Assembly (NCBI GenBank): GCA_027046105.1
Contig: JALTZQ010000069.1
Coordinates: forward strand, 1 to 19,107
From: Pyrodictiaceae archaeon
GTDB lineage: Archaea > Thermoproteota > Thermoprotei_A > Sulfolobales > Pyrodictiaceae
Direction: 5' to 3'
DNA length: 19,107 nt
The notes below the pieces were generated by a model. The model ran no database searches. It was not told the DNA's origin and worked only from the letters and a program-made list of their open reading frames with translations. Of this stretch, positions 980 through 15,690 are shown piece by piece. The translations under genes and the position numbers were made by a program. Position 1 is the stretch's first letter, and each line of letters begins with the position of its first letter.

Positions 980-1618
980 TTACTTTCTTCTCTCGGATAA
1001 TGCCCATGCTATGACAAAGACACCTACGGCTGCTAGGTAAAGTGCTAGACCCACAATAAATCCGCTTCTTACTAGGGACTCAGATTCTGCGATAGGATCG
1101 GGTATAGGGACTTCTGGCAGCTTCTTGTATGTTATTGTTGATGTTGGTTTAGTTTGTGTGGGTGTAGTCTTTGCTGGTTTGGGCGTTGTTTCTACTGTTG
1201 TAGGTGTTGTTTTAGTTGTTGTTTTTGGGATTGTTGGTGTTTGAGTCTCTTGTGCTGTTTTACTCTTTTTTGCCTCCTCAAATATAGCTATAAAGTAGTT
1301 GTTGAGCTCTGGTGTGACGCCTGGCATTGACTTCATTAACTCATCCCAGCTCTTCACATTGTTGAACATCTTGAAGTTTGCCGCCTCTGTAGCGACAGCT
1401 TCGTCGAGGCTCTCGTACTTTAAGGCCCACTCACGAAGCTTAGCTATAACACCATCAAAGTCTGGTGCTAGGACATTGTTGTGGCAGCTTGTACAGCCAG
1501 CTTCACTGAATAGTTTCCTAGCTTCATCCTCACTTAGACCACTAGTAGCTGAAGCCAGCCCCACGACTCCAGTAAGTACCAGTAGTGTGAGCATTAACAG
1601 CCAGTTATTACGCCTCAT
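980..1618 (-). CDS. Membrane-tethered monoheme c-type cytochrome
   Basis: A 212-residue exported cytochrome. Residues 1-24 are a signal peptide (hydrophobic core WLLMLTLLVLTGVVGLA). The haem site CTSCH is at 42-46 within EARKLFSEAGCTSCH, the usual context of small class I-type cytochrome domains. A candidate distal Met ligand is in LMKSMPGVTPELNNY near residues 100-115, where the P-x-L-T-like context resembles a cytochrome c Met loop. Residues about 122-170 are a Thr/Pro/Lys linker, and about 183-205 form a transmembrane helix ending in ERRK. I chose ATG 1618 because GGGTGG sits 6 nt upstream; an in-frame TTG at 1624 is the alternative. It lies 85 bp after nrfD on the same strand. It probably shuttles electrons between the NrfD complex and the octaheme enzyme or another partner. 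In complex III-like NrfD systems a monoheme cytochrome fills that role. Confidence 0.85.
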   Translation of the reverse strand: MRRNNWLLMLTLLVLTGVVGLASATSGLSEDEARKLFSEAGCTSCHNNVLAPDFDGVIAKLREWALKYESLDEAVATEAANFKMFNNVKSWDELMKSMPGVTPELNNYFIAIFEEAKKSKTAQETQTPTIPKTTTKTTPTTVETTPKPAKTTPTQTKPTSTITYKKLPEVPIPDPIAESESLVRSGFIVGLALYLAAVGVFVIAWALSERRK

Positions 1619-1703
1619 CTGCAACCACCCTATCGCGGAATTCCCGGGTTTATCCCCATAGGAAGTTTATCCCTAGGCCACGAAAAAACTTATGAAAGAC
1701 TTG

Positions 1704-2960
1704 TTAGTGGCTCGTCTTTCCACTGAAATAATGTATCATGACAGCTTTGAGCGCTGCCCTTGCTAGTACAAGGTACACTAGTATCCCTATTGCGTGCATA
1801 CCCACCGTTATCCCAACCTCTAATGGCGTTGGATAATATGGGTATATTTCGCCAAGGGTTCCCGGTACATAGCCTGGTATGACGATGGTCATGGTTTTTT
1901 CTGCTATTACCGCAACTACCGTTAGTGCGGACACCAACAATACACCCTCCTTCGTATTGTGGATGCGTGGCAGTATGCCTAGTATCGCAGCAGCAATACC
2001 TAGACCTATCCAAAGCCATATCAATATCGCGAGGTATGGTAGATGGTAGCCGAAGAACAATACCTCAGCCTGTGCCCTCTTTACAGGCTCTGTGGTATAC
2101 CAAAAGATCTCCTGGACTTCGCTGAACGTGAAGTACAAGCCAACTATCAATGCTCCAACGACCACGTACAAGGTTTTCTTGTAAACGCTAAAGTCTACGT
2201 GGAAGCCCTTCACGTACCTCTCTGCCAAGTATAACGCTAGTAATAGCAGGGCGGGACCACTAGCAAAGGCTGTAGCGACGAAGCGTGGTGCCATAAGTGG
2301 GCTATTCCATATTGGTCGCGCGGTTAGTGCTTGGAATATGAATGCAGTTACAGTATGTATACCTATTGCAAAAGGTGCGGCAATTATTATGAATGGCACC
2401 AGGAACTTCTTTGGCAAAGGCTTATCCTGGCGATAGTAGTGGACAGTTACCAGTAATGCTATCAGGTTTAGCAAGAGATAGGTGGTTAATACTATGAAGT
2501 CCCAGTCTAGCATTGAACGTAGATTCGGCAGCTGCGGCATCAATACTAGTGCTCTTAGGGGGCGCCCAATGTCAACCATGATTAGTAGGAGGACTGTTAC
2601 TAGTGCTGCTATAGCTTGTACTTCGCCGAAAACGGCAACCTTCACGAACTCCTTATCATTGAACACGTAAGCTGCTATACCGAATAATATGCCCGCAGCG
2701 GCGACACCAACCCAGAACACGAAGAATGATACATAGAGTCCCCATGGCACACTATCACTTAGCGCTGTTAGTATCATGCCGCCCCTATCACTGCCGAGAA
2801 ATATTGGTGCATGCTGCACGAATATCCACAGGTAGAGGCCATAGGCAGCTATCAGCACGAGTCCGATAATAGCCAGATAGTATCGTGTGCTACCCTCTAG
2901 TAGTGCTTCACGTATAACGAACTTTAGTGTCTCAAGAAACCCTCCATTCCCCTCACCCAT
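1704..2960 (-). CDS. nrfD: NrfD/PsrC-family quinol-site membrane subunit
   Basis: A 418-residue polytopic membrane protein. Hydrophobic helices begin at about residues 28, 72, 109, 151, 189, 228, 262, 306, 340 and 380, so roughly 8-10 spans. Characteristic stretches are SVPWGLYVSFFVFWVGVAAAG near the start (NrfD proteins carry a similar W-G-x-Y motif) and LNLIALLVTVHYYRQDK. Known family members (NrfD, PsrC, QrcD, ActC) hold the quinone site and have no cofactors of their own. At 418 residues it is longer than PsrC and in the range of NrfD/QrcD-type proteins. ATG 2960 is preceded by GGGTGAT at good spacing, and the gene begins 21 bp after the iron-sulfur subunit, so they are surely co-transcribed. 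It should oxidise menaquinol-type quinol and pass electrons to the iron-sulfur subunit. Direction of flow is inferred from context. Confidence 0.92.
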   Translation of the reverse strand: MGEGNGGFLETLKFVIREALLEGSTRYYLAIIGLVLIAAYGLYLWIFVQHAPIFLGSDRGGMILTALSDSVPWGLYVSFFVFWVGVAAAGILFGIAAYVFNDKEFVKVAVFGEVQAIAALVTVLLLIMVDIGRPLRALVLMPQLPNLRSMLDWDFIVLTTYLLLNLIALLVTVHYYRQDKPLPKKFLVPFIIIAAPFAIGIHTVTAFIFQALTARPIWNSPLMAPRFVATAFASGPALLLLALYLAERYVKGFHVDFSVYKKTLYVVVGALIVGLYFTFSEVQEIFWYTTEPVKRAQAEVLFFGYHLPYLAILIWLWIGLGIAAAILGILPRIHNTKEGVLLVSALTVVAVIAEKTMTIVIPGYVPGTLGEIYPYYPTPLEVGITVGMHAIGILVYLVLARAALKAVMIHYFSGKTSH

Positions 2961-2981
2961 GCACTATCACCCCACTAACAG

Positions 2982-4028
2982 CTAGCCACGGCCACCTCCC
3001 TCGGTAGTCTCTTCGGGGGAAGGTTCACGTGGGGGAGTTCTTCTTGGTCCAAAGAAGTAGAAGAATCTAGGCCTTGTACCAGCTTCGGGCTTTAATACAA
3101 AAGCGCCATATTCCTCTATGACACGACGTATAGGGCTCTCTGGGTCATTGAGATCACCAAAGACGCGTGCACCAACCGGACACACCTCAACACATGCTGG
3201 TACTCCTCCATCGCGTGTACGCTGAATACACCATGTACACTTCTCTACAACGTGTACTTGCCTCGGTATATTGCCGAGAATATGCATGTTGGGATTGATT
3301 TCGGTTACTGGCACATAGGGTTTAGCCCAGTTAAAGTACCTAGCACCATAAGGACATGCTGTCATACAGTACCGGCAACCAATACAGCGGTCGTAATCCA
3401 CGATAACTATACCGTCGGGTTCCTTCCATGTGGCGCGAACCGGGCAAACCATGACACAAGGAGGGTCCTCGCAGTGCATGCATGCAACAGGTACATAGAC
3501 CATGCCAGGTTTTGGTGCATCCTTATAGTCCATATTCGAGTAGATTATCTCCATTTCTTCTCTGGGCATCTCTAGAACCTTTATCCATTCTATGCGCAAG
3601 TTCCTACCCTGATTATTCTCCATGACACATGCGTAGGCGCAGCGGCGGCAGCCAATACACTTATTTACGTCAAGTGCCATGGCATAGCGGGTTCCTTCGC
3701 GAGGTTCAGTTGCTTTTACCTTAATCATTGAGCACCGCTTACGTGCCTCCTTACAAGCATCAGAGTCTTCGCCCATGGAGCTGCAGATCTTTTCAGCCTC
3801 AGCCTCACACCATTTACGTATCTCGGCTTCTTTCTCCAGTGCACGTTTTTCTAAGGGGCTCTTAGCGGTCTCGCGGTCTTGGAGAAGAAGATCCTCAAGC
3901 TTTACTGGTGTAAGAAGTTTCTGTAATTCTTCCCGCTTAACCGCTATAAAGGCTATTGTTGAGGTACTTGCGGCCACAGCGGCTGCTTTAAGGAATTCCC
4001 TCTTAGACTGGTCAATCTTCTCCACCAT
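2982..4028 (-). CDS. nrfC: Exported four-[4Fe-4S] ferredoxin-like subunit, NrfC/PsrB type
   Basis: A 348-residue iron-sulfur subunit with 16 Cys in four motifs: 124/127/130/134 (CIGCRRCAYAC), 183/186/191/195 (CMHCEDPPCVMVC), 215/218/221/225 (CIGCRYCMTAC) and 264/267/279/283 (CTWC...ACVEVC). This is the standard DmsB/PsrB/NrfC arrangement for four cubanes. The N-terminus SKREFLKAAAVAASTSTIAFIA looks like a Tat signal with KR in place of RR, so export folded is likely but atypical. Between the signal and the first cluster lie four extra Cys (about 74, 82, 92, 99) in a helical, charged segment, not part of the usual family pattern. The C-terminus is Pro/Gly-rich. ATG 4028 is preferred over GTG 4037 because GAGGTGA lies 5 nt before it, overlapping the stop of the tetraheme gene. 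No molybdopterin catalytic subunit is adjacent, so it probably links NrfD to the tetraheme cytochrome. Confidence 0.92.
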   Translation of the reverse strand: MVEKIDQSKREFLKAAAVAASTSTIAFIAVKREELQKLLTPVKLEDLLLQDRETAKSPLEKRALEKEAEIRKWCEAEAEKICSSMGEDSDACKEARKRCSMIKVKATEPREGTRYAMALDVNKCIGCRRCAYACVMENNQGRNLRIEWIKVLEMPREEMEIIYSNMDYKDAPKPGMVYVPVACMHCEDPPCVMVCPVRATWKEPDGIVIVDYDRCIGCRYCMTACPYGARYFNWAKPYVPVTEINPNMHILGNIPRQVHVVEKCTWCIQRTRDGGVPACVEVCPVGARVFGDLNDPESPIRRVIEEYGAFVLKPEAGTRPRFFYFFGPRRTPPREPSPEETTEGGGRG

Positions 4029-4033
4029 TGATC

Positions 4034-4705
4034 TCACCTCTCATCCCTGCTAAGAGGTAGGAAGAGGGCGCCTGCGACAAGTAGTAAACCACCTATTATG
4101 GCAGCTAATCCGCCAAAGGCTATACCTGCCTCATTGGGTGGTGGTGGTCTTATTGAGGGTTCTGGGAGTATGCTTGGTGGAGGCATTGTTGGGTCGTGGG
4201 GGTTATGGCACTCTACACAAGCCTTTGCAGGGACTGTTGTTAGATTCTTGTATTCTGGGCATATGTGAAAATCGTAGCCTACGCCCTTGTAGCCAATGAC
4301 CTTTGTTACATTTCCGTCGGGGCAGATGAAGGTCTTATTCCCGTGTACGAGGTAGTTGTAGTCAAGATACTGTCTCGGATGGCAAACTGCACATACACTA
4401 TTGGTCTTCTTAAGATCCTCTGTTGTGTGTAGTCCAGGTATATAGACTTCAGCATTATTTACTAGTTTCTGCATAGTAGGTGGTACGTGGCAGCTTGAAC
4501 AGACTAATCCGCGGTGAGCACCCTTAGTCAAATCGATACCGTGGAAGGGTACAATTTTGCGGTTCCCTGTCAGATTTAGTGCTTGGTGACATGTCACGCA
4601 GGGATAGAACTGGGATGACCCTTGTGCTTCAATCGTGGTTGATGCTAATAGTATTACTAGTATTGTAGAGAAAAGGGCTAGTACACTTACCCTGGCCCAC
4701 CTCAT
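4034..4705 (-). CDS. Tail-anchored tetraheme c-type cytochrome (NrfB-like role)
   Basis: A 223-residue exported cytochrome with four CXXCH sites at residues 36-40, 69-73, 105-109 and 163-167. Residues 1-28 are a signal peptide (VSVLALFSTILVILLASTTIEA). Two further Cys (about 128 and 149) may form a disulfide. Extra His residues (FHG, AHRG, LVHG, NPHD) are candidate distal ligands. The end is a Pro-rich linker and a transmembrane helix (about 195-217) followed by SRDER. Membrane quinol-dehydrogenase cytochromes of the NapC/NrfH family also have four haems but are anchored by an N-terminal helix, so this is not a simple NrfH. ATG 4705 has GAGGTGA 8 nt upstream; GTG 4717 is the alternative. Its stop is 5 bp before the iron-sulfur gene. 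Gene order tetraheme-FeS-NrfD matches nrfB-nrfC-nrfD, with the haem protein as electron exit. Confidence 0.88.
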   Translation of the reverse strand: MRWARVSVLALFSTILVILLASTTIEAQGSSQFYPCVTCHQALNLTGNRKIVPFHGIDLTKGAHRGLVCSSCHVPPTMQKLVNNAEVYIPGLHTTEDLKKTNSVCAVCHPRQYLDYNYLVHGNKTFICPDGNVTKVIGYKGVGYDFHICPEYKNLTTVPAKACVECHNPHDPTMPPPSILPEPSIRPPPPNEAGIAFGGLAAIIGGLLLVAGALFLPLSRDER

Positions 4706-4717
4706 CGTGTAAGTCAC

Positions 4718-4837
4718 CTCTGGCGTATCAAATGAGATGATAGTATACTCTTTAACTATTGCCTTACACTGTATTTGCCATGACTTGGGTTTGCTAGCAG
4801 ATGAGTCTAGAATTAAGTGTTAGCCCGAAAACTTTCC
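4718..4837 (-). promoter_or_regulatory. Possible promoter of the tetraheme-FeS-NrfD operon
   Basis: On the minus strand the gap holds GTTAAAGAGTATACTATC (about 4737-4754), an A/T-rich TATA-like element. A start site about 25 nt downstream would leave a leader of about 20 nt that carries the GAGGTGA ribosome-binding site. No other feature is seen. Confidence 0.35.
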
Positions 4838-6370
4838 CTACTTACCACCCTTAAAGCTAGAACGCTTGGCCTGGATCACGAGAAGAACTACAACAAACAG
4901 AATAATTGCCAAGACGAGCGTAGAGCAGGTTTCGGGAATAACATGGCAGTTCTTCTCCCCATCCATAAGGGGTGTGGTGGTCAATATGGGTTGCTGTATA
5001 GGGGGAGCGCTAATACTCGTAGGTGTAGTGCTTTCTCTTTCTTCCAAGATGCTGGGGCAAACGCGTGAAATAGTCGAGGCGGTAGAAGCATTGTATGAGG
5101 TATTAGGTATGACACCTAGCGTCTTACCACTCCTGGAGAGCCAGTCTATGGTACTCGTGTTGATGTAGGGCCATGTAGCGTTATCAGTAGCCACGGCTAC
5201 GAGAATACCGCCAATAAGTTGTTTGAGTATGTTGCGGCACTCTGCTGGTGCAAGGGAGAGCATTAACATAACCAGGTCGGGCAAAGTTATGGGCTCTCTT
5301 GGTCCAGTAGCTAGTGAGTCAATAAATAGTTTCCTAAGAGCAGCGGTATATACATCAACTTGGCAAACTTTCAGCCCTGCATACCATAGAGCACTGTGAG
5401 CCCTCATCCAGACTCCATACTGTTCATCGGCAGATAACAGACCGACAAGATACTTTTGAGCAAACTCGTATAACCTCGGCGCCTTCTCGTAAAGTGCTCG
5501 CATAGCTAGAAACTCTGCAGCAGCTTCCTGAAACCCGAAACCCCCATACAGCATGCCATGATTAAACCATCCATGCAGGGTTTCATGTGCAATTGTGTGT
5601 ACAAGCCATGCTGTAGCATCAATGCTAAATCCCGTTTTCAAATACACAACACCACCAATGCTATGAGCAGTCCCAGGAGGTAAAAACTCATGCTCACTAC
5701 TGCCCACGATAACCGCAACGGTTGGTGCACGGGGACTAGAACCCAGCCAAGACGAGGCTGCTGAACGCACAGTTACAAGAGTAGAAACAACTAGATCCAA
5801 ATCCCCCATTGAAAGACCACGCCAAGCAACGATGCTTACATTAAGCTTAGGATAGTCGAGGACACGGTAGATAGACGAATTAGCGACCACGACTCCATCA
5901 AACAAGTAGTACTTCCTAAACAACCCAGCATCAACCGTATAGGGTCCACCAACACGGCCATAACCTCTCCAATCCATACCCGTGCGTACAGCATAGCCCT
6001 CTGGAACCCTCAACTCAAAGAAAATGGCGCCATTACTAGTCTCCTCGATAGCGTCTAGCACACGAGGACACACACGGTCCAACACATAATATAAAGGTGT
6101 TACAACAAGGTCACGAGAGATACTTCTCGTCTGCAAATAATAGACATTGGGTGTAAGCACCCCTTCGCAGGAGATACCGGCTCTCCCCTCTAACACTACA
6201 TGTACTCTCCAACTATTGTTCATCAATGGTTCCTCAAAGAATAATACAAGCCTAAACCCATAACCACTGGTATCAGCTAGTACATACCAAAACATGGTTG
6301 ACGTGATTGACAAGGCTACGCCAAGTAGTAAAGCCACGTGTAAAATGGAAAATGTGTGCTCGTGTCCCAC
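4838..6370 (-). CDS. Membrane-anchored gluzincin-like zinc metallopeptidase
   Basis: A 510-residue protein with an N-terminal hydrophobic segment (about 8-31), a large extracytoplasmic domain, a Ser/Thr/Pro-rich stretch (about 440-470) and a C-terminal transmembrane helix (about 479-501) ending in QAKRSSFKGGK. The zinc motif HETLH is at 262-266 in AHETLHGWFNHG, with Glu282 and Glu286 in GFQEAAAEF as candidates for the third ligand. M1-type gluzincins have HEXXH-x18-E with W-F after the motif and an E-G-F-A-E-Y-like block. Here the W-F is kept and the spacing is 15 or 19, so it is a divergent relative rather than a standard aminopeptidase. The upstream half (residues 35-190) is beta-rich and Tyr-rich. 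GTG 6370 is supported by GAGGAGG just upstream. It sits among cytochrome genes on the same strand and may process or clear exported cytochromes; the substrate is unknown. Confidence 0.8.
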   Translation of the reverse strand: MGHEHTFSILHVALLLGVALSITSTMFWYVLADTSGYGFRLVLFFEEPLMNNSWRVHVVLEGRAGISCEGVLTPNVYYLQTRSISRDLVVTPLYYVLDRVCPRVLDAIEETSNGAIFFELRVPEGYAVRTGMDWRGYGRVGGPYTVDAGLFRKYYLFDGVVVANSSIYRVLDYPKLNVSIVAWRGLSMGDLDLVVSTLVTVRSAASSWLGSSPRAPTVAVIVGSSEHEFLPPGTAHSIGGVVYLKTGFSIDATAWLVHTIAHETLHGWFNHGMLYGGFGFQEAAAEFLAMRALYEKAPRLYEFAQKYLVGLLSADEQYGVWMRAHSALWYAGLKVCQVDVYTAALRKLFIDSLATGPREPITLPDLVMLMLSLAPAECRNILKQLIGGILVAVATDNATWPYINTSTIDWLSRSGKTLGVIPNTSYNASTASTISRVCPSILEERESTTPTSISAPPIQQPILTTTPLMDGEKNCHVIPETCSTLVLAIILFVVVLLVIQAKRSSFKGGK

Positions 6371-6403
6371 AATACCTCCTCCTCAATGGAAGCACTTGTA
6401 AGC

Positions 6404-6411
6404 ATTATAAT
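6404..6411 (-). promoter_or_regulatory. TATA-like element before the metallopeptidase gene
   Basis: Minus-strand TTATAATG lies about 34 nt before the GTG start at 6370. That spacing would place transcription start about 10 nt before the start codon, just ahead of the GGAGG ribosome-binding site. It implies the peptidase can be expressed apart from the octaheme gene. Confidence 0.35.
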
Positions 6412-6487
6412 GTATTGCGTGAAGGAGAGTTAGTGGCTTAAGACGAGTCTCCTATAGTTATCTTAAGAAGAGAGCTTTTTGGAGTAT

Positions 6488-6508
6488 GCTTTAAAAAATA
6501 GTGGGGGA
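6488..6508 (-). terminator. Probable T-tract terminator of the octaheme gene
   Basis: About 30 nt after the octaheme stop codon the minus strand reads CCCCCACTATTTTTTAAAGC. A six-T run is a typical archaeal intrinsic termination signal. No strong hairpin is seen, nor is one needed in archaea. Confidence 0.4.
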
Positions 6509-6533
6509 ACGTGTTTAGTATACAGTATTTATT

Positions 6534-9062
6534 TTACTTGCGGCGATAGACTACGAACAATACTAGTGCTATGACCGCTATGGCTAGTGCTATGGCTGCT
6601 AATGTGTAGGCTGCTGCGGATGCACTCTCAACCTTGCTACTTAACTCATCTATCTTACCCGTAATCTCCTCAACGGTTGTTAATGCCCGACTAGCAGTAG
6701 CACTAGCTTCTTCAGCCTTAGCGCCAGCGCTCTCTGCCTTCTGTCTTAGTTCCTCAATCTTGCTAACTACTTGTTGTATCTCGCTTACAAGCCTTTGTAT
6801 CTCCTCTGCGCGTGGACTTATAGCAGTGAGCTGCTTACTCAATTCTTCAAGCTGTTGTAGTATCGTTGTTACATCGCCTTTCAGAGCACCAACATCACCT
6901 TCAATAGCAGTGTAGCTCGCTTCTAGGCTCTGCAGTTGATTCCTCAGCGCTGGTACCTGTGCCTCTAGGGCAGCTAGCTGTGCACGTAATGTCTCTAGCT
7001 CGCGTTGTAACTGGGTTATCAGCGTCATTAGCTCTGGAGTATAGGGTGCACCAGCCACTTGTTGTTTCAGCACTTGTAGTTCCATCTCAAGTTTCTTCAT
7101 GCGTAGAGCTGTGTCTAGGTACGATATCATCCTTGTCAGCTTATCCATCACAGTATCGGTTATGCCCATCCACATTGCGTACTCGGGGCTCATCATTGTT
7201 GCTCCGTGTCTCCATCTTCTGCCGTCGTGATGCCAGATGTAGTACCACATTAACTCCATGTACTCGTCAAGCTTGTTTGTCGGATCGTGTATACCCTCCT
7301 TATAAGCTAGCTGTAGGAGTGCAAACGCGAATCTAGCAACAATGTCGTAGTCTATTAAGTTCTGGTCTGCTGTACGGAAGAAGTTGTCTATCCACTGACT
7401 ACTGTGGCAAAGCCTACATACTGACTTCATTTCTTCTCTGTGCTTTGCTAATTCACCAGTATATTCGATCGTTAATAGTCTTGGGAAAGCGGTCTCTCCG
7501 GGCTTAGGTCCTTCAAGTATTCTTACTCCAGTAAAGGTTGGGTACCTATACTCCTCTGGTGCTCTTGGGTTAGCTTTAGCCTCAATATCCTCTAGCTTGC
7601 CCTTTAGCTGGCTCCAGCCATAGTAGAGTGCTAACTGTTGTTTGTCTGGTATTATCGGTTTTGGTATGGTGAAGAAGTGCATCTGGTCCCACACTATTCT
7701 CCTTACAAGATCATGTGTACCCTTGACGAGTATGTTACCCTGTGCATCAGCTATAGTGCTCATGTGACATGTAGCACATGTTGGTGCGTTGAAGTCTACT
7801 CCAACACGCCATGGAATCTGGTTCCAGTTCCAGTCTTTACCATATACATCCCATAGGTTTCCATGCTTGCTGTCCTCGTAGATTTCAATGTGCGGGTGGT
7901 CGAGGCCTAAGTGGCACTGACCACAAGTCCATGGCTCACGGGCTTGCTTCACGCTAAATGTATGTCTTGCATGGCATACTGTACAAGCGCCCATGCTTCC
8001 ATCTGGGTCTAGTCTAGCAGCACCAAGATTTGGCCAACCCCATAGTGCTACACGATTAACCGTTAAACCACGTACATTCACAGTCTCCTTCTTGTAAGGT
8101 ACTACTATACTACCGTGGCACTGCATACATGCATGGTAGACGTAGGCATTCTTGAACCATGGATGCTCCATTATTCTTGACACAGTTTCCGTCTTAAGGC
8201 CCATTGCATTAACGACTACCTTTATACCATGCCTAACTAATACGGTAGTGTTTAGCGTAGCGCTTGGTGGCCATAATGGGCCTATGAATGTCTTCCAATC
8301 ATAGTCGTAGGGTGTAACCATGCCCGTAGCTTCTTTGAGCATTCTTACAATGTCATTCTCCTTTCCTGTCTCTAGGTACTCCATAACAGCCTTGGCTATT
8401 TCCTTGTAGAAGTCCCAATAGATATCAACCTCTCCACGCTTGTTGGTCAAGTATGGTGGGAAGTACTTCTCGTATAGGGCTCTAGCTCTACTGTCACCGA
8501 AGGGGTCTGCTCCCTGCTCCTTAGCCCACTGAAGAATGGCCTTGTACCATGGAGCGAATGGTGACATTATGCTACCGGTTGCGTGCCACGTCCAGCTAAG
8601 CTCGGTGCTTTCCTTAGGATGGCATTGGCTACAGTCTTTCCTTGTTACAATAGTTACTATCTTGTAGCCAAAATGGTTCTCTATGATATCTGGTCTATCC
8701 TGATCCTTAAACATGCCGTGGCACTCATAACAGCTTATCACATAGGGGTAGTCCTTGAACTTATCGGATATCTTATCAGCCCATTCGGGTGCACCAATAG
8801 CCTGGTAGAGTTTCGGTAGTTGATCTACTGTGCTAACAGCATGCTTACTATTAGCCCACTCATACACAATACCAGGTGTATACTGTAGGTGACAACTTAT
8901 ACAAGTCTGGCTCTGTGGACTGACCTTCCCACTCTTCAGTATCTCATCCAATTTAGCGACAAGTTCGTCACCAAAGACTGCTGCTTGAGCACTCACTATA
9001 CCTGTTGCAGTGAGAGGCAGAACCACTAAGAGGAGTATACTAGCCATTAAAATACGTCTCAT
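6534..9062 (-). CDS. hao: Stalked octaheme cytochrome c, hydroxylamine oxidoreductase family
   Basis: An 842-residue exported cytochrome with eight CXXCH sites at residues 54, 111, 144, 312, 360, 380, 429 and 549. Residues 1-25 are a signal peptide (RRILMASILLLVVLPL). After the last haem comes YYIWHHDGRRWRHGA followed by MMSPEYAMWMG, which I recognise as the C-terminal signature of the HAO/octaheme family. All eight sites are CXXCH, which argues against octaheme nitrite reductase ONR (one CXXCK). Typical HAO proteins are about 550-600 residues. Here about 638-815 is a long heptad-rich coiled coil (LQRELETLRAQLAALEAQV and similar), ending in a transmembrane helix (about 816-838) and YRRK. Likely a membrane-tethered trimer or oligomer. 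In hyperthermophiles and epsilonproteobacteria such proteins are linked to nitrite reduction to ammonia rather than hydroxylamine oxidation; that use here is inferred from the NrfBCD-like neighbours. I chose ATG 9062 (signal peptide fits); an in-frame GTG at 9098 would add 12 residues. Confidence 0.88.
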   Translation of the reverse strand: MRRILMASILLLVVLPLTATGIVSAQAAVFGDELVAKLDEILKSGKVSPQSQTCISCHLQYTPGIVYEWANSKHAVSTVDQLPKLYQAIGAPEWADKISDKFKDYPYVISCYECHGMFKDQDRPDIIENHFGYKIVTIVTRKDCSQCHPKESTELSWTWHATGSIMSPFAPWYKAILQWAKEQGADPFGDSRARALYEKYFPPYLTNKRGEVDIYWDFYKEIAKAVMEYLETGKENDIVRMLKEATGMVTPYDYDWKTFIGPLWPPSATLNTTVLVRHGIKVVVNAMGLKTETVSRIMEHPWFKNAYVYHACMQCHGSIVVPYKKETVNVRGLTVNRVALWGWPNLGAARLDPDGSMGACTVCHARHTFSVKQAREPWTCGQCHLGLDHPHIEIYEDSKHGNLWDVYGKDWNWNQIPWRVGVDFNAPTCATCHMSTIADAQGNILVKGTHDLVRRIVWDQMHFFTIPKPIIPDKQQLALYYGWSQLKGKLEDIEAKANPRAPEEYRYPTFTGVRILEGPKPGETAFPRLLTIEYTGELAKHREEMKSVCRLCHSSQWIDNFFRTADQNLIDYDIVARFAFALLQLAYKEGIHDPTNKLDEYMELMWYYIWHHDGRRWRHGATMMSPEYAMWMGITDTVMDKLTRMISYLDTALRMKKLEMELQVLKQQVAGAPYTPELMTLITQLQRELETLRAQLAALEAQVPALRNQLQSLEASYTAIEGDVGALKGDVTTILQQLEELSKQLTAISPRAEEIQRLVSEIQQVVSKIEELRQKAESAGAKAEEASATASRALTTVEEITGKIDELSSKVESASAAAYTLAAIALAIAVIALVLFVVYRRK

Positions 9063-9300
9063 AACGTAGCCCCCCGGGCCTACCTTGGCTTTTAACACCT
9101 ATTCTTAGCCGCAGTAAATGGTGGAACGTGTACAACTAGTTATGTTTGCAACCCCAACCTTTCGGTGCCCACTCCATTCTCGTGGTCTAAAACTAAGTGA
9201 GTAAGAGGCTACCTTGGTCTAGCCTTTTAGACCCCGGGGGGCTAGGGCTACTTTCTAATTTCCATTGCCTATAGCAGCGTTATAGGGCTTTATAAAGTGA
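9063..9300 (-). promoter_or_regulatory. Long structured leader and promoter of the octaheme gene
   Basis: CTTTATAAAG (9288-9297) is a strong, palindromic TATA-like element. A start near 9265 would give a leader of about 200 nt. In that leader TAGCCCCCCGGG (minus strand, from 9244 down to 9233) is exactly complementary to CCCGGGGGGCTA (9078 down to 9067), whose last base is 4 nt before the ATG. Between the arms is a perfect six-bp hairpin GGTCTA-AAAGGC-TAGACC (9216-9233) that overlaps the outer arm by one base (9233), and CCAAGGTAG occurs twice (near 9082-9090 and 9211-9219). The G-run nearest the ATG is the only ribosome-binding candidate and is inside the helix. No riboswitch family is recognised. 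Confidence 0.5.
9067..9244. repeat. Perfect 12-bp inverted repeat flanking 154 bp
   Basis: Plus-strand TAGCCCCCCGGG at 9067-9078 and its exact reverse complement CCCGGGGGGCTA at 9233-9244. Both arms are very GC-rich compared with the surrounding A/T-rich DNA, so they stand out. The pair brackets the untranslated region of the octaheme gene. Confidence 0.85.
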
Positions 9301-9682: not shown

Positions 9683-10200
9683 TCATTGGTCATCAGTTGT
9701 GTGTCTCAGATCCTGGTTTGGAGCTAAGGCTATGAGGCCCTTCTTGTAGATATTCATTGCTCTCACTGTGGTCAATGACTTGGCTGTGCTTGCATCTCGG
9801 ATACATCCTGCTAGTACTACTTGGATTCATGTAGATTATGGGGACGTTGTGCTTTACCACTTTAGCCTCTATCGCTTAGACTTAGCTTCCTGTAAGCGAA
9901 CCTGAATAGCCTACGTACTAAACTTCTATGGATATTGTACACGGCTTCTCCAGCTCTTCGACGGCTACGGCTCTACTCATTCTTCTGGCCTTCAACGTTA
10001 AGTACTTGGCAATCTTTTATAAGTTAATCTAGTACAATTCTTACGCTATTTTTATGCACTGAACCCGCAAACATCAGCAACCTAGGGATGGATTCAGACT
10101 TCTTATAGCTAAAGAACATACTCTTATACGCATACATCACGGCCTTTTCTCTTAAGCCCCTCCTCTCCTATAGTGCTCTGCCCTCTTCCTTCAACGTATA
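9683..10200 (-). pseudogene. tnpB: Frameshifted TnpB (IS605-family OrfB) remnant
   Basis: The minus strand carries TnpB blocks in order, in shifting frames. They are KIAKYLTLKARRMSRAVAVEELEK (10016 to about 9945; EEL fits the RuvC-II Glu), RSLVRRLFRFAYRKL (about 9927-9883), AKVVKHNVPIIYMNPSSTSR followed by a YPRC Cys (9875-9765; the TS...CP.C first zinc knuckle), and RAMNIYKKGLIALAPNQDL ending at TGA 9683. At least three frame changes separate the blocks. Between the first knuckle and NIYKKG about 20-25 residues are missing, which in intact proteins hold the second Cys pair and the RuvC-III Asp. The part upstream of 10016 (to about 10200) is only faintly TnpB-like. No TnpA is seen. It is dead as a nuclease. 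Confidence 0.8.
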
Positions 10201-14492: not shown

Positions 14493-14963
14493 TTATGGGT
14501 GTGGACACATAACGCAGTGATGTGGCATGTAGGGCATCCTAGTTGTTGGACATTGCGTTGGCACGTATTCTACCCCGTTTATTATTAGTAGTATTGGCTG
14601 GATAACTATACCATGAGGCATTGCATAGACTTGTCCCTCTACAATAATCTCTGCTCCAGGTTCTAGTTTTCCGGGATCTAAGAGTTGACTATCGCTTATC
14701 CAGCAACCCCTTACCGGCATCATGTACAAGTTACTACCAGCTCGTATGTAGAGCATTCCATCCTCAAAGCCTGCAATGACTCCTTTAACTACTGTCTTAC
14801 CTCCATATACACGACAATGCCCCAATGCCTCAACGAATGCGGGTAGTTGTTCTGTTTCTTCGATCGGTGGCGGCCCTGGGTACAGAGTGTAAGCTAGGAA
14901 AGGCCCTAACATTGCTAGTAGTAGCGATACAACGACTAAAGCAATCCTTCCGATGAATGGCAT
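14493..14963 (-). CDS. Membrane-anchored OB-fold-like protein with Cys/His metal-binding tail
   Basis: A 156-residue protein. Residues 7-26 form an N-terminal signal anchor (ALVVVSLLLAMLGPFLAYTL), followed by a Pro-rich hinge (PGPPP). About 45-135 is a beta-rich domain with the alternation VVKGVIAGFEDGMLYIRAG and IIVEGQVYAMPHGIVIQPIL, resembling small OB-type barrels. The tail CPTTRMPYMPHHCVMCPHP is packed with Cys, His and Met, and probably binds copper or another soft metal. Two more Cys (HCRVYGG and RGCWIS) could form a disulfide. An alternative is a CcmE-like haem chaperone (OB fold, N-terminal anchor, C-terminal ligand tail), which would suit the many cytochromes in the window, but the C-x3-Y/H-x3-Y motif is not cleanly present. 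ATG 14963 is chosen because GGGGTGG lies upstream; TTG 14984 is possible. The next upstream gene is a likely paralogue. Confidence 0.65.
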   Translation of the reverse strand: MPFIGRIALVVVSLLLAMLGPFLAYTLYPGPPPIEETEQLPAFVEALGHCRVYGGKTVVKGVIAGFEDGMLYIRAGSNLYMMPVRGCWISDSQLLDPGKLEPGAEIIVEGQVYAMPHGIVIQPILLIINGVEYVPTQCPTTRMPYMPHHCVMCPHP

Positions 14964-15126
14964 TCTCAACCCACCCCATTTCAATCCTAGAGGACTACAC
15001 TTTGTAATATTGTGTTAGTGTGTTAACATAGCCCTAGGAGAGTGTTGAGCCTCCATAAGCGCAAGATATAGCGTCATTAATCTGTATGGATTGAAAAGAA
15101 TAGGGATTTAAGGTGTTTAACGCGAA

Positions 15127-15186: not shown

Positions 15187-15678
15187 CTAGTGCATCATTG
15201 GTACTGTGTAGCTCTTGTTGTTCCAGTCTAAGCTTAGTATCATCATGCCATAGATTGTTACCGTTACTTGGTCGCCAACGCCTATCTTTTCTATTAGCCA
15301 TTTGCCTGAGACTAGATAGCCGTTGTCTTCGTCAACGAGCATTCCCGGCAGCTTAGCTGTGATAACGATATCACCTGCCTCTATAGTTAGTATTCCACGA
15401 TACTCGTCTTTAGCGACAATAGTACCGGTTATACTCGTCCCCTCAAACCCATCTATTGTTTGAGGCTCGTATCCCCCCATTTCCTCGTGGTGGGGACAGT
15501 GGTCACTCCAGCCTGCTTGCCTCATCATGCCCATATTGTAGTCTGAAGGGTTGTAGCCTTGGTGCATTCCCATCCATGGCCCCATCATACCCATCTGTGT
15601 TGTTCCATAGACTGTAACTGGTAGTCCTACAGCCAGTGCTGCTAGGAGTATGGGTATGAGGGTTGTCTGACCTGCCAT
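15187..15678 (-). CDS. Exported OB-fold-like protein with Met/His-rich metal-binding domain
   Basis: A 163-residue protein. Residues 1-25 form a signal peptide (LIPILLAALAVGLPVTVYG). About 26-70 is unusually rich in Met and His (QMGMMGPWMGMHQGYN, then DYNMGMMRQAGWSDHCPHHEEM), with one Cys. About 80-158 is a beta-rich domain (GTIVAKDEYRGILTIEAGDI, then VGDQVTVTIYGMMILSLDWN) of OB type, ending in PMMH. Met-rich segments next to a small beta barrel are typical of extracytoplasmic Cu(I)/Ag(I) binders such as CusF or PcoC-like proteins; that is analogy, not homology. The HCPHH here resembles HHCVMCPHP in the gene downstream, with the metal segment at the opposite end of the fold. ATG 15678 has GGTGA 7 nt upstream; GTG 15690 is the alternative. 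It shares a divergent promoter region with the membrane protein gene at 15781. Confidence 0.65.
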   Translation of the reverse strand: MAGQTTLIPILLAALAVGLPVTVYGTTQMGMMGPWMGMHQGYNPSDYNMGMMRQAGWSDHCPHHEEMGGYEPQTIDGFEGTSITGTIVAKDEYRGILTIEAGDIVITAKLPGMLVDEDNGYLVSGKWLIEKIGVGDQVTVTIYGMMILSLDWNNKSYTVPMMH

Positions 15679-15690
15679 TCTCTGCGTCAC

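Follow-up and report, generated by a model that had tools for sequence, protein, structure and literature searches.

An HAO-family octaheme cytochrome and a linked NrfD module as a candidate quinol-dependent nitrogen-oxide reductase in Pyrodictiaceae

The closest described counterpart of the locus studied here is the gene cluster Pyrde_0485-0496 of Pyrodictium delaneyi, which Kashyap and Holden described as a putative respiratory complex that includes "sulfur reductase" genes (PMC8105010). Our locus lies in a 19,107-nucleotide stretch of DNA from a Pyrodictiaceae archaeon (contig JALTZQ010000069.1 of assembly GCA_027046105.1), the whole of which we call the window, and encodes, all on the minus strand, an octaheme c-type cytochrome, an M1-like protein, a tetraheme cytochrome, a four-cluster iron-sulfur (Fe-S) protein, an NrfD protein and two monoheme cytochromes. 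The tetraheme, the Fe-S protein and NrfD are referred to as the trio. The P. delaneyi complex likewise has an octaheme, a tetraheme, two genes described as sulfur reductase-related and monohemes, and its proteins are 79% (NrfD), 82% (Fe-S) and 72% (octaheme) identical to those of the window. It differs in having Ccm genes between these components and in having been assigned no function in print, whereas we read the window octaheme as a probable terminal reductase for nitrogen oxides. Within Ignicoccus, Igni528-530 have been described as a bacterial-type polysulfide-reductase cluster common to Hyperthermus (PMC2614490), and Igni_0955 and Igni_1359 as octaheme proteins (PMC4429474).

Bacterial NrfABCD also joins a catalytic multiheme cytochrome to a small multiheme cytochrome, a four-cluster Fe-S protein and NrfD, and an operon of Archaeoglobaceae described below has its counterparts in the A-B-C-D order; however, NrfA and NrfB are pentaheme proteins, whereas an HAO-family octaheme and a tetraheme stand in their place here, and the window Fe-S protein and NrfD are closer to DsrO and DsrP. 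The likeness to DsrMKJOP lies in an Fe-S protein that passes the DsrO cut-off, an NrfD most like DsrP and a multiheme c gene alongside, but DsrJ is a triheme where the window encodes a tetraheme, and no DsrM or DsrK was recognized among the window neighbors scanned. The solved octaheme structure PDB 4qo5, the IhOCC of Ignicoccus hospitalis, is a 521-residue chain without the C-terminal stalk proposed here; Asp-Val takes the place of the window protein's Asp-His in it, and the nearer relative of the window octaheme in Ignicoccus (P0032, 55%) is a different protein. Epsilon-Hao adjoins Nap in epsilonproteobacteria, Caldithrix and Denitrovibrio and has been proposed to reduce nitrite to ammonia without the cross-link Tyr (PMC5317091), a combination of Nap with a Tyr-less HAO-family octaheme that recurs in relatives of our locus. 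The donors proposed for the Caldithrix protein are different (a NapM tetraheme, a Rieske/cytochrome b complex and ACIII), and the parts of that account drawn on here mention no linked trio, stalk or peptidase gene (PMC5317091).

The octaheme gene occupies positions 9098-6534 on the minus strand and encodes 854 amino acids with eight CxxCH motifs, numbered from a GTG start at 9098; an earlier sequence-only reading of this DNA had used the ATG at 9062. Beyond the gene for the M1-like protein lie those of the tetraheme (4717-4034, minus; four CxxCH motifs and a C-terminal hydrophobic segment), the four-cluster 4Fe-4S protein (4037-2982, minus; 16 Cys in four ferredoxin motifs, counted by eye) and the NrfD-superfamily membrane protein (2960-1704, minus; Pfam NrfD, 132 bits). 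The tetraheme and Fe-S genes overlap by four bases, and the other intergenic gaps range from 21 to 257 bases. A pattern scan of the window found 16 CxxCH matches against a shuffle mean of 1.6, with eight in the octaheme, four in the tetraheme, one in each of the monoheme genes (1624-980 and 722-3) and two elsewhere. The sequence-only reading had named the octaheme, tetraheme, Fe-S and NrfD genes on one strand with no NrfA or molybdopterin gene adjacent; the open reading frames, the CxxCH scan and Pfam bear out these genes, and neither NrfA nor a molybdopterin gene was recognized within the window. The M1-like gene, which sits between the octaheme and tetraheme genes, and the two monohemes had not been mentioned.

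By its sequence the octaheme protein is a member of the HAO family, given its eight c-heme motifs and its homology with HAO chains. Its nearest named relatives after the P. delaneyi protein are those of Hyperthermus (69% identity) and Pyrolobus (61%). Sequence searches matched the HAO-family PDB chains 4qo5, 6h5l, 1fgj, 4n4j and 6hif, with 4qo5 as the top solved chain (244 bits) and also the first fold match; the predicted model, which has low confidence round the heme core and was used for fold naming only, matched 4qo5, 1fgj, and 6hif at E 0.019 in the fold search. Asp400-His401 aligns with D267-H268 of 1fgj, which we take to be the catalytic Asp-His pair of HAO, and the pair was invariant in two alignments of relatives (A1, 27 rows; A3, 35 rows). 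Met642 occupies the position aligned to the Tyr that oxidative HAO and hydrazine dehydrogenase (P460) cross-link to heme 4 and that related anammox proteins also have. Across proteins P0001-P0064 this position, aligned through a short motif and not by structure, was His in 54, Phe in 6, Tyr in one (P0004) and Met in one, with two unresolved. Members of the HAO family have His at the cross-link position when reductive and Tyr when oxidative (PMC12758564). With the Asp-His pair kept and the cross-link Tyr absent, the window protein appears to carry features of reductive HAO-family proteins, in agreement with the sequence-only reading. An oxidative HAO or hydrazine dehydrogenase was considered and rejected, given a family-model score of 66 of 900 bits and the absent cross-link Tyr. 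Across P0102-P0119 and PDB 4qo5 the octaheme active site came in two forms, Asp-His or Asp-Val, and the solved protein has the latter.

The C-terminus of the octaheme consists of a coiled-coil-like stretch of ~140 residues followed by a terminal hydrophobic helix. Past the GRRWxxG motif the window protein has 222 residues; many relatives have 212 to 253, those of a second group 132 to 179, P0062-P0064 ~80 and an Ignicoccus-like group ~50. We infer from this layout that a coiled-coil stalk holds the octaheme up in the S-layer space.

The association between octaheme and trio was assessed in 147 genomes of the crenarchaeal order, comprising 26 with the octaheme or the trio NrfD (module genomes) and 121 with neither. 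We found both in 21 genomes, NrfD only in two (G118, G138) and the octaheme only in three, which are assemblies of 0.9-1.1 Mb, for totals of 23 with NrfD and 24 with the octaheme (Fisher 3e-20, a value that overstates independence because the genomes are related). Two of the 21 (G071, G152) have just partial octaheme matches, at 34-47% identity, which may represent paralogues. Among 80 octaheme loci fetched, many with short flanks, the trio was present in five crenarchaeal ones: it lies directly beside the octaheme in L009, L011 and L019, where the trio comes first, and in L010, where the octaheme does, while two Ccm genes intervene in L017. CcmC-like, CcmF and thioredoxin-cytochrome genes separate the two in P. 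delaneyi, P. abyssi, P. occultum and Pyrofollis. The tetraheme-FeS-NrfD order was kept in all nine 20-kb trio regions inspected, and a relative of the monoheme gene at 1624-980 (minus; Thr-rich linker, C-terminal hydrophobic segment) follows NrfD in seven of them, being missing in the two from Ignicoccus; the Pyrolobus relative has two hemes.

Among the frames of at least 600 amino acids in the same nine regions there was one molybdopterin protein, a Nap-like one in L113; the others were Ccm, 2-oxoacid oxidoreductase, ATPase and peptidase proteins, together with proteins of 716 (L111) and 690 (L114) amino acids without a Pfam family. A consistent linkage of the trio to sulfur reductases, which the sequence-only reading had named as a case that would undo it, was seen in none of them. 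We also rejected the trio as part of a molybdoenzyme complex, as the sole molybdopterin gene recognized nearby is Nap-like, a type that in Pyrolobus and P. delaneyi comes with NapG/NapH-like genes of its own. Co-occurrence, adjacency in four more crenarchaeal loci and the Archaeoglobaceae operon support the earlier proposal that octaheme and trio belong together.

The family assignment of the trio fared differently. The Fe-S protein passed the DsrO cut-off (205.6 bits vs 200) and reached 137 of 377.6 bits with NrfC; the tetraheme gave 19.5 of 184 with the NrfB model (PRK11659); and NrfD had DsrP as its best equivalog (243 bits, short of the cut-off of 350), with the NrfD equivalog not among the matches listed. 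Across 27 NrfD relatives scanned, DsrP was matched in every one and the NrfD equivalog as well in eight. The "Nrf-type" label and the identification of the genes as nrfB-nrfC-nrfD therefore have to be given up, and we regard the tetraheme as a likely functional counterpart of NrfB or DsrJ.

A second arrangement, octaheme (eight hemes)-tetraheme (four hemes)-FeS-NrfD with no gene between, was seen in three Archaeoglobus loci; among 55 Archaeoglobaceae it was present in six of the 12 octaheme-bearing genomes, although the G186 contig breaks off within the FeS gene. The remaining six octahemes had no trio alongside, some of them being on short contigs. In L059, the sole operon genome scanned with equivalog models, NrfD scored higher with the NrfD model than with DsrP (67.9 vs 35.1 bits) and the Fe-S protein higher with TtrB than with DsrO (194.2 vs 156.4 bits), with all four below cut-off. 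Archaeoglobus octahemes fell in another clade, together with bacterial sequences (support 0.99, 32-row tree rooted by hand). Most simply, the octaheme-trio pairing would have arisen twice from parts of different branches, an independent assembly that rests on the below-cut-off models in one genome and the hand-rooted tree; alternatively, a single ancient association may have been followed by changes of partner and by losses. If the same pairing was indeed built from different parts, this is the strongest argument that octaheme and trio work together. NarG was present in 5 of the 12 Archaeoglobaceae octaheme genomes compared to 2 of the 43 others. Ferroglobus placidus converts nitrite to nitric oxide (NO) and N2O; the paper on its genome found a nitrite reductase of neither NirS nor NirK type (PMC3236036).

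Links to nitrate were also apparent in the crenarchaeal order. A Nap-like protein of ~1250 amino acids was found in 11 of the 26 module genomes vs 1 of the 121 others, that one with six internal stops (E 1e-60), and a protein query within a 20-genome family added G001 and G019. Its best solved relative is the periplasmic nitrate reductase 2jio, though it falls below the NapA cut-off, and NapG/NapH-like genes come after it in Pyrolobus and P. delaneyi. The Nap-like gene stands two genes from the octaheme in Pyrolobus (Nap, a 319-amino-acid gene, Reeler monoheme, octaheme, peptidase, HTH_10) and in G007 (Nap, HTH_10, peptidase, octaheme); Pyrofollis and G138 have it three genes away from the tetraheme (in the order Nap, two genes, Reeler, tetraheme), and in six relatives a Reeler gene lies no more than ~5 kb from it. 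Co-occurrence with a Nar nitrate reductase, the check suggested by the sequence-only reading, failed to appear, with Nar in 2 of the 26 module genomes vs 15 of the 121 others: a Nap-like enzyme, not Nar, accompanies the crenarchaeal module. The expectation of a module without NrfA was supported: the NrfA model PF02335 matched none of the 26 module genomes, its sole match in the 147 being one of 30.5 bits in a non-module genome, and NrfA did not appear among the Pfam matches of the window cytochromes. Pyrolobus fumarii reduces nitrate to ammonia and is enriched with nitrate as the sole electron acceptor (PMC3156397). No COX1-family protein was found in Pyrolobus at E 1e-20, whereas COX1-family proteins of 710-738 amino acids are encoded in P. 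delaneyi, P. abyssi and G014, and the P. delaneyi member, the sole one compared, matches NO reductases; the product may therefore be ammonia in Pyrolobus and NO in P. delaneyi.

Taken with the conserved residues, these associations lead us to favor, with confidence slightly above even, quinol-dependent reduction of nitrite (or NO or hydroxylamine) by octaheme and trio as the most likely function, with the octaheme probably the terminal reductase, as was proposed earlier. The locus would encode a nitrogen-oxide reductase on the outer face of the membrane, in which NrfD oxidizes (methyl)menaquinol and electrons pass through docked partners to the four-cluster Fe-S protein, the tetraheme and finally the octaheme, possibly with a monoheme as shuttle. 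The octaheme, probably a trimer, would be anchored by its C-terminal helix and lifted off the membrane by the stalk. Nitrite, supplied in many of these organisms by the Nap-like nitrate reductase, would be reduced by the octaheme to ammonia in ammonifiers such as Pyrolobus and to NO where an NO reductase is present, such as in P. delaneyi. We put forward more tentatively, as a proposal less likely than not, that an archaeal quinol:nitrite reductase of HAO-family octaheme, tetraheme and Fe-S/NrfD was built on at least two occasions, from a DsrOP-like pair in Pyrodictiaceae and from one nearer NrfD/TtrB in Archaeoglobaceae, that it makes ammonia from nitrite in Pyrolobus and serves Ferroglobus as its NO-forming nitrite reductase, and that the Pyrodictiaceae form is stalked in the S-layer space.

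Several observations weigh against nitrogen-oxide reduction by octaheme and trio. The window protein has Met where His is usual, and relative P0004 has the Tyr. P. abyssi has octaheme and trio, yet neither Nap nor Nar was found in the searches, and NarG was present in just 2 of the 6 Archaeoglobaceae operon genomes (G185, G186), where Nap was not searched. I. hospitalis has a Nap-like gene, trio and octaheme, yet does not respire nitrate according to the published account (PMC2614490). The P. delaneyi octaheme Pyrde_0496 appeared in heme bands on both nitrate and ferrihydrite with no significant difference in the results drawn on here, while the linked monoheme Pyrde_0485 was higher on ferrihydrite (PMC8105010). 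In Pyrolobus 200 kb separate octaheme and trio, and in Ignicoccus the distance exceeds 500 kb. The octaheme and peptidase genes of P. occultum are split into several frames (L207, L112) while its trio is open, which implies either a different role for the trio in that species or a faulty assembly; the thioredoxin-cytochrome gene is likewise split, which makes an assembly error possible.

The last two of these points, the Ccm and thioredoxin-cytochrome genes between trio and octaheme in four genomes and the two genomes with NrfD but no octaheme would also be expected if the trio were a general DsrOP-like quinol:cytochrome c oxidoreductase filling a pool shared by the Nap-like enzyme, multihemes and octaheme, with the linkage reflecting the clustering of cytochrome genes round Ccm genes. 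We consider this unlikely, though the likeliest of the alternatives, as the Archaeoglobaceae operon has no gene between its four components and the octaheme stands beside the trio in two crenarchaeal gene orders. An extracellular electron conduit to Fe(III) minerals, with the stalked octaheme spanning the S-layer space and no nitrite reduction, seems to us improbable. The ferrihydrite response of Pyrde_0485, the compact operon without a NarG match in G189 and a stalk that would lift the octaheme off the membrane all suit a conduit; however, no significant shift between ferrihydrite and nitrate was reported for the P. delaneyi octaheme itself, in contrast to a strong increase in a second octaheme (0784) and in two molybdoenzyme complexes (PMC8105010). 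The invariant Asp-His pair would be superfluous in a pure conduit, and the linkage to a Nap-like gene also argues against one.

Protective scavenging of NO, hydroxylamine or nitrite, as opposed to respiration, could account for an octaheme present in P. delaneyi on both acceptors (PMC8105010), for one in Ignicoccus despite the lack of nitrate respiration reported there (PMC2614490), and for P. abyssi, where the octaheme is accompanied by a protein as long as an NO reductase while Nap and Nar gave no match. A quinol module linked to Nap suggests energy metabolism, however, and P. fumarii is enriched on nitrate as sole electron acceptor (PMC3156397), such that we hold scavenging to be quite improbable. 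We give still less credence to the trio being a sulfur or polysulfide reductase to which the octaheme is incidental, the public annotation that names NrfD 'polysulfide reductase' in the source records. Earlier proposals for the Ignicoccus trio (PMC2614490, PMC4429474) and the S0-respiring relatives favor it, but a catalytic subunit of a sulfur reductase was not recognized in the nine 20-kb trio regions, P. fumarii has the trio and is reported not to grow on elemental sulfur (PMC3156397), and P. delaneyi Su06 is described as the exception to sulfur reduction in its family (PMC8105010).

The genes themselves were already known; what is new in the reading of octaheme and trio as a probable nitrogen-oxide reductase is the nitrite-reductase interpretation, the co-occurrence of octaheme and NrfD, the second assembly in Archaeoglobaceae, the Nap link and the active-site residues. 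A description of the octaheme-tetraheme-FeS-NrfD module as a nitrite reductase was not found in the open-access literature searched. With four named genes and a defined electron path as the candidate, nitrite reduction to NO in Ferroglobus and nitrate reduction to ammonia in Pyrolobus become testable. If the reading is true, octaheme enzymes acquired the NrfD/Fe-S quinol module on more than one occasion, which would bear on the origin of ammonification and of the HAO family in hot, anoxic settings.

The gene next to the octaheme (6370-4838, minus) encodes an M1-type metallopeptidase-like protein of 510 amino acids, predicted to be membrane-anchored, with an HExxH x19 E motif and an M1-aminopeptidase-like predicted fold. 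A relative adjoins the octaheme in 12 genomes (G002-G007, G014, G033, G044, G053, G063, G085), and none was found after the octaheme in 12 loci with at least 2.5 kb downstream (L008-L013, L015, L018, L022-L025); the gene therefore marks one group and not all stalked forms. The M1-like protein perhaps trims or releases the octaheme. Beyond the peptidase gene, an HTH_10 regulator is encoded in P. delaneyi, Pyrolobus, G007, G003 and Pyrofollis.

Upstream of the octaheme gene, a 24-nucleotide element (9132-9155, minus) with inverted half-sites TTGCAA..TTG(C/T)A is conserved in the window, P. delaneyi and P. abyssi, and has four mismatches in P. occultum, where the octaheme gene is broken. No further copy with <6 mismatches was found in the loci scanned, including Nap and trio loci. 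The element is a possible operator, perhaps for the HTH_10 regulator encoded nearby in relatives. We rejected a structured leader RNA upstream of the octaheme, since the arms of a 12-nucleotide inverted repeat are not kept in P. delaneyi and P. abyssi; its fold had a z of -2.05, and 4 of 200 shuffles were equally good. A promoter and terminator scan gave no excess over shuffles.

At the opposite end of the locus, a monoheme cytochrome of the Reeler / choice-of-anchor V type (722-3, minus) is cut by the window end. No open reading frame of at least 80 amino acids starts between 9098 and 10595, and a short open piece at 9693-9860 (minus) has a TSRM-type zinc-ribbon-like stretch that by eye looks like the C-terminal end of a TnpB-type transposon protein. 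At 14493-14984 and 15187-15690 the window encodes two small proteins rich in Met and His, which begin with signal-like sequences, have no Pfam family and are possibly metal-binding.

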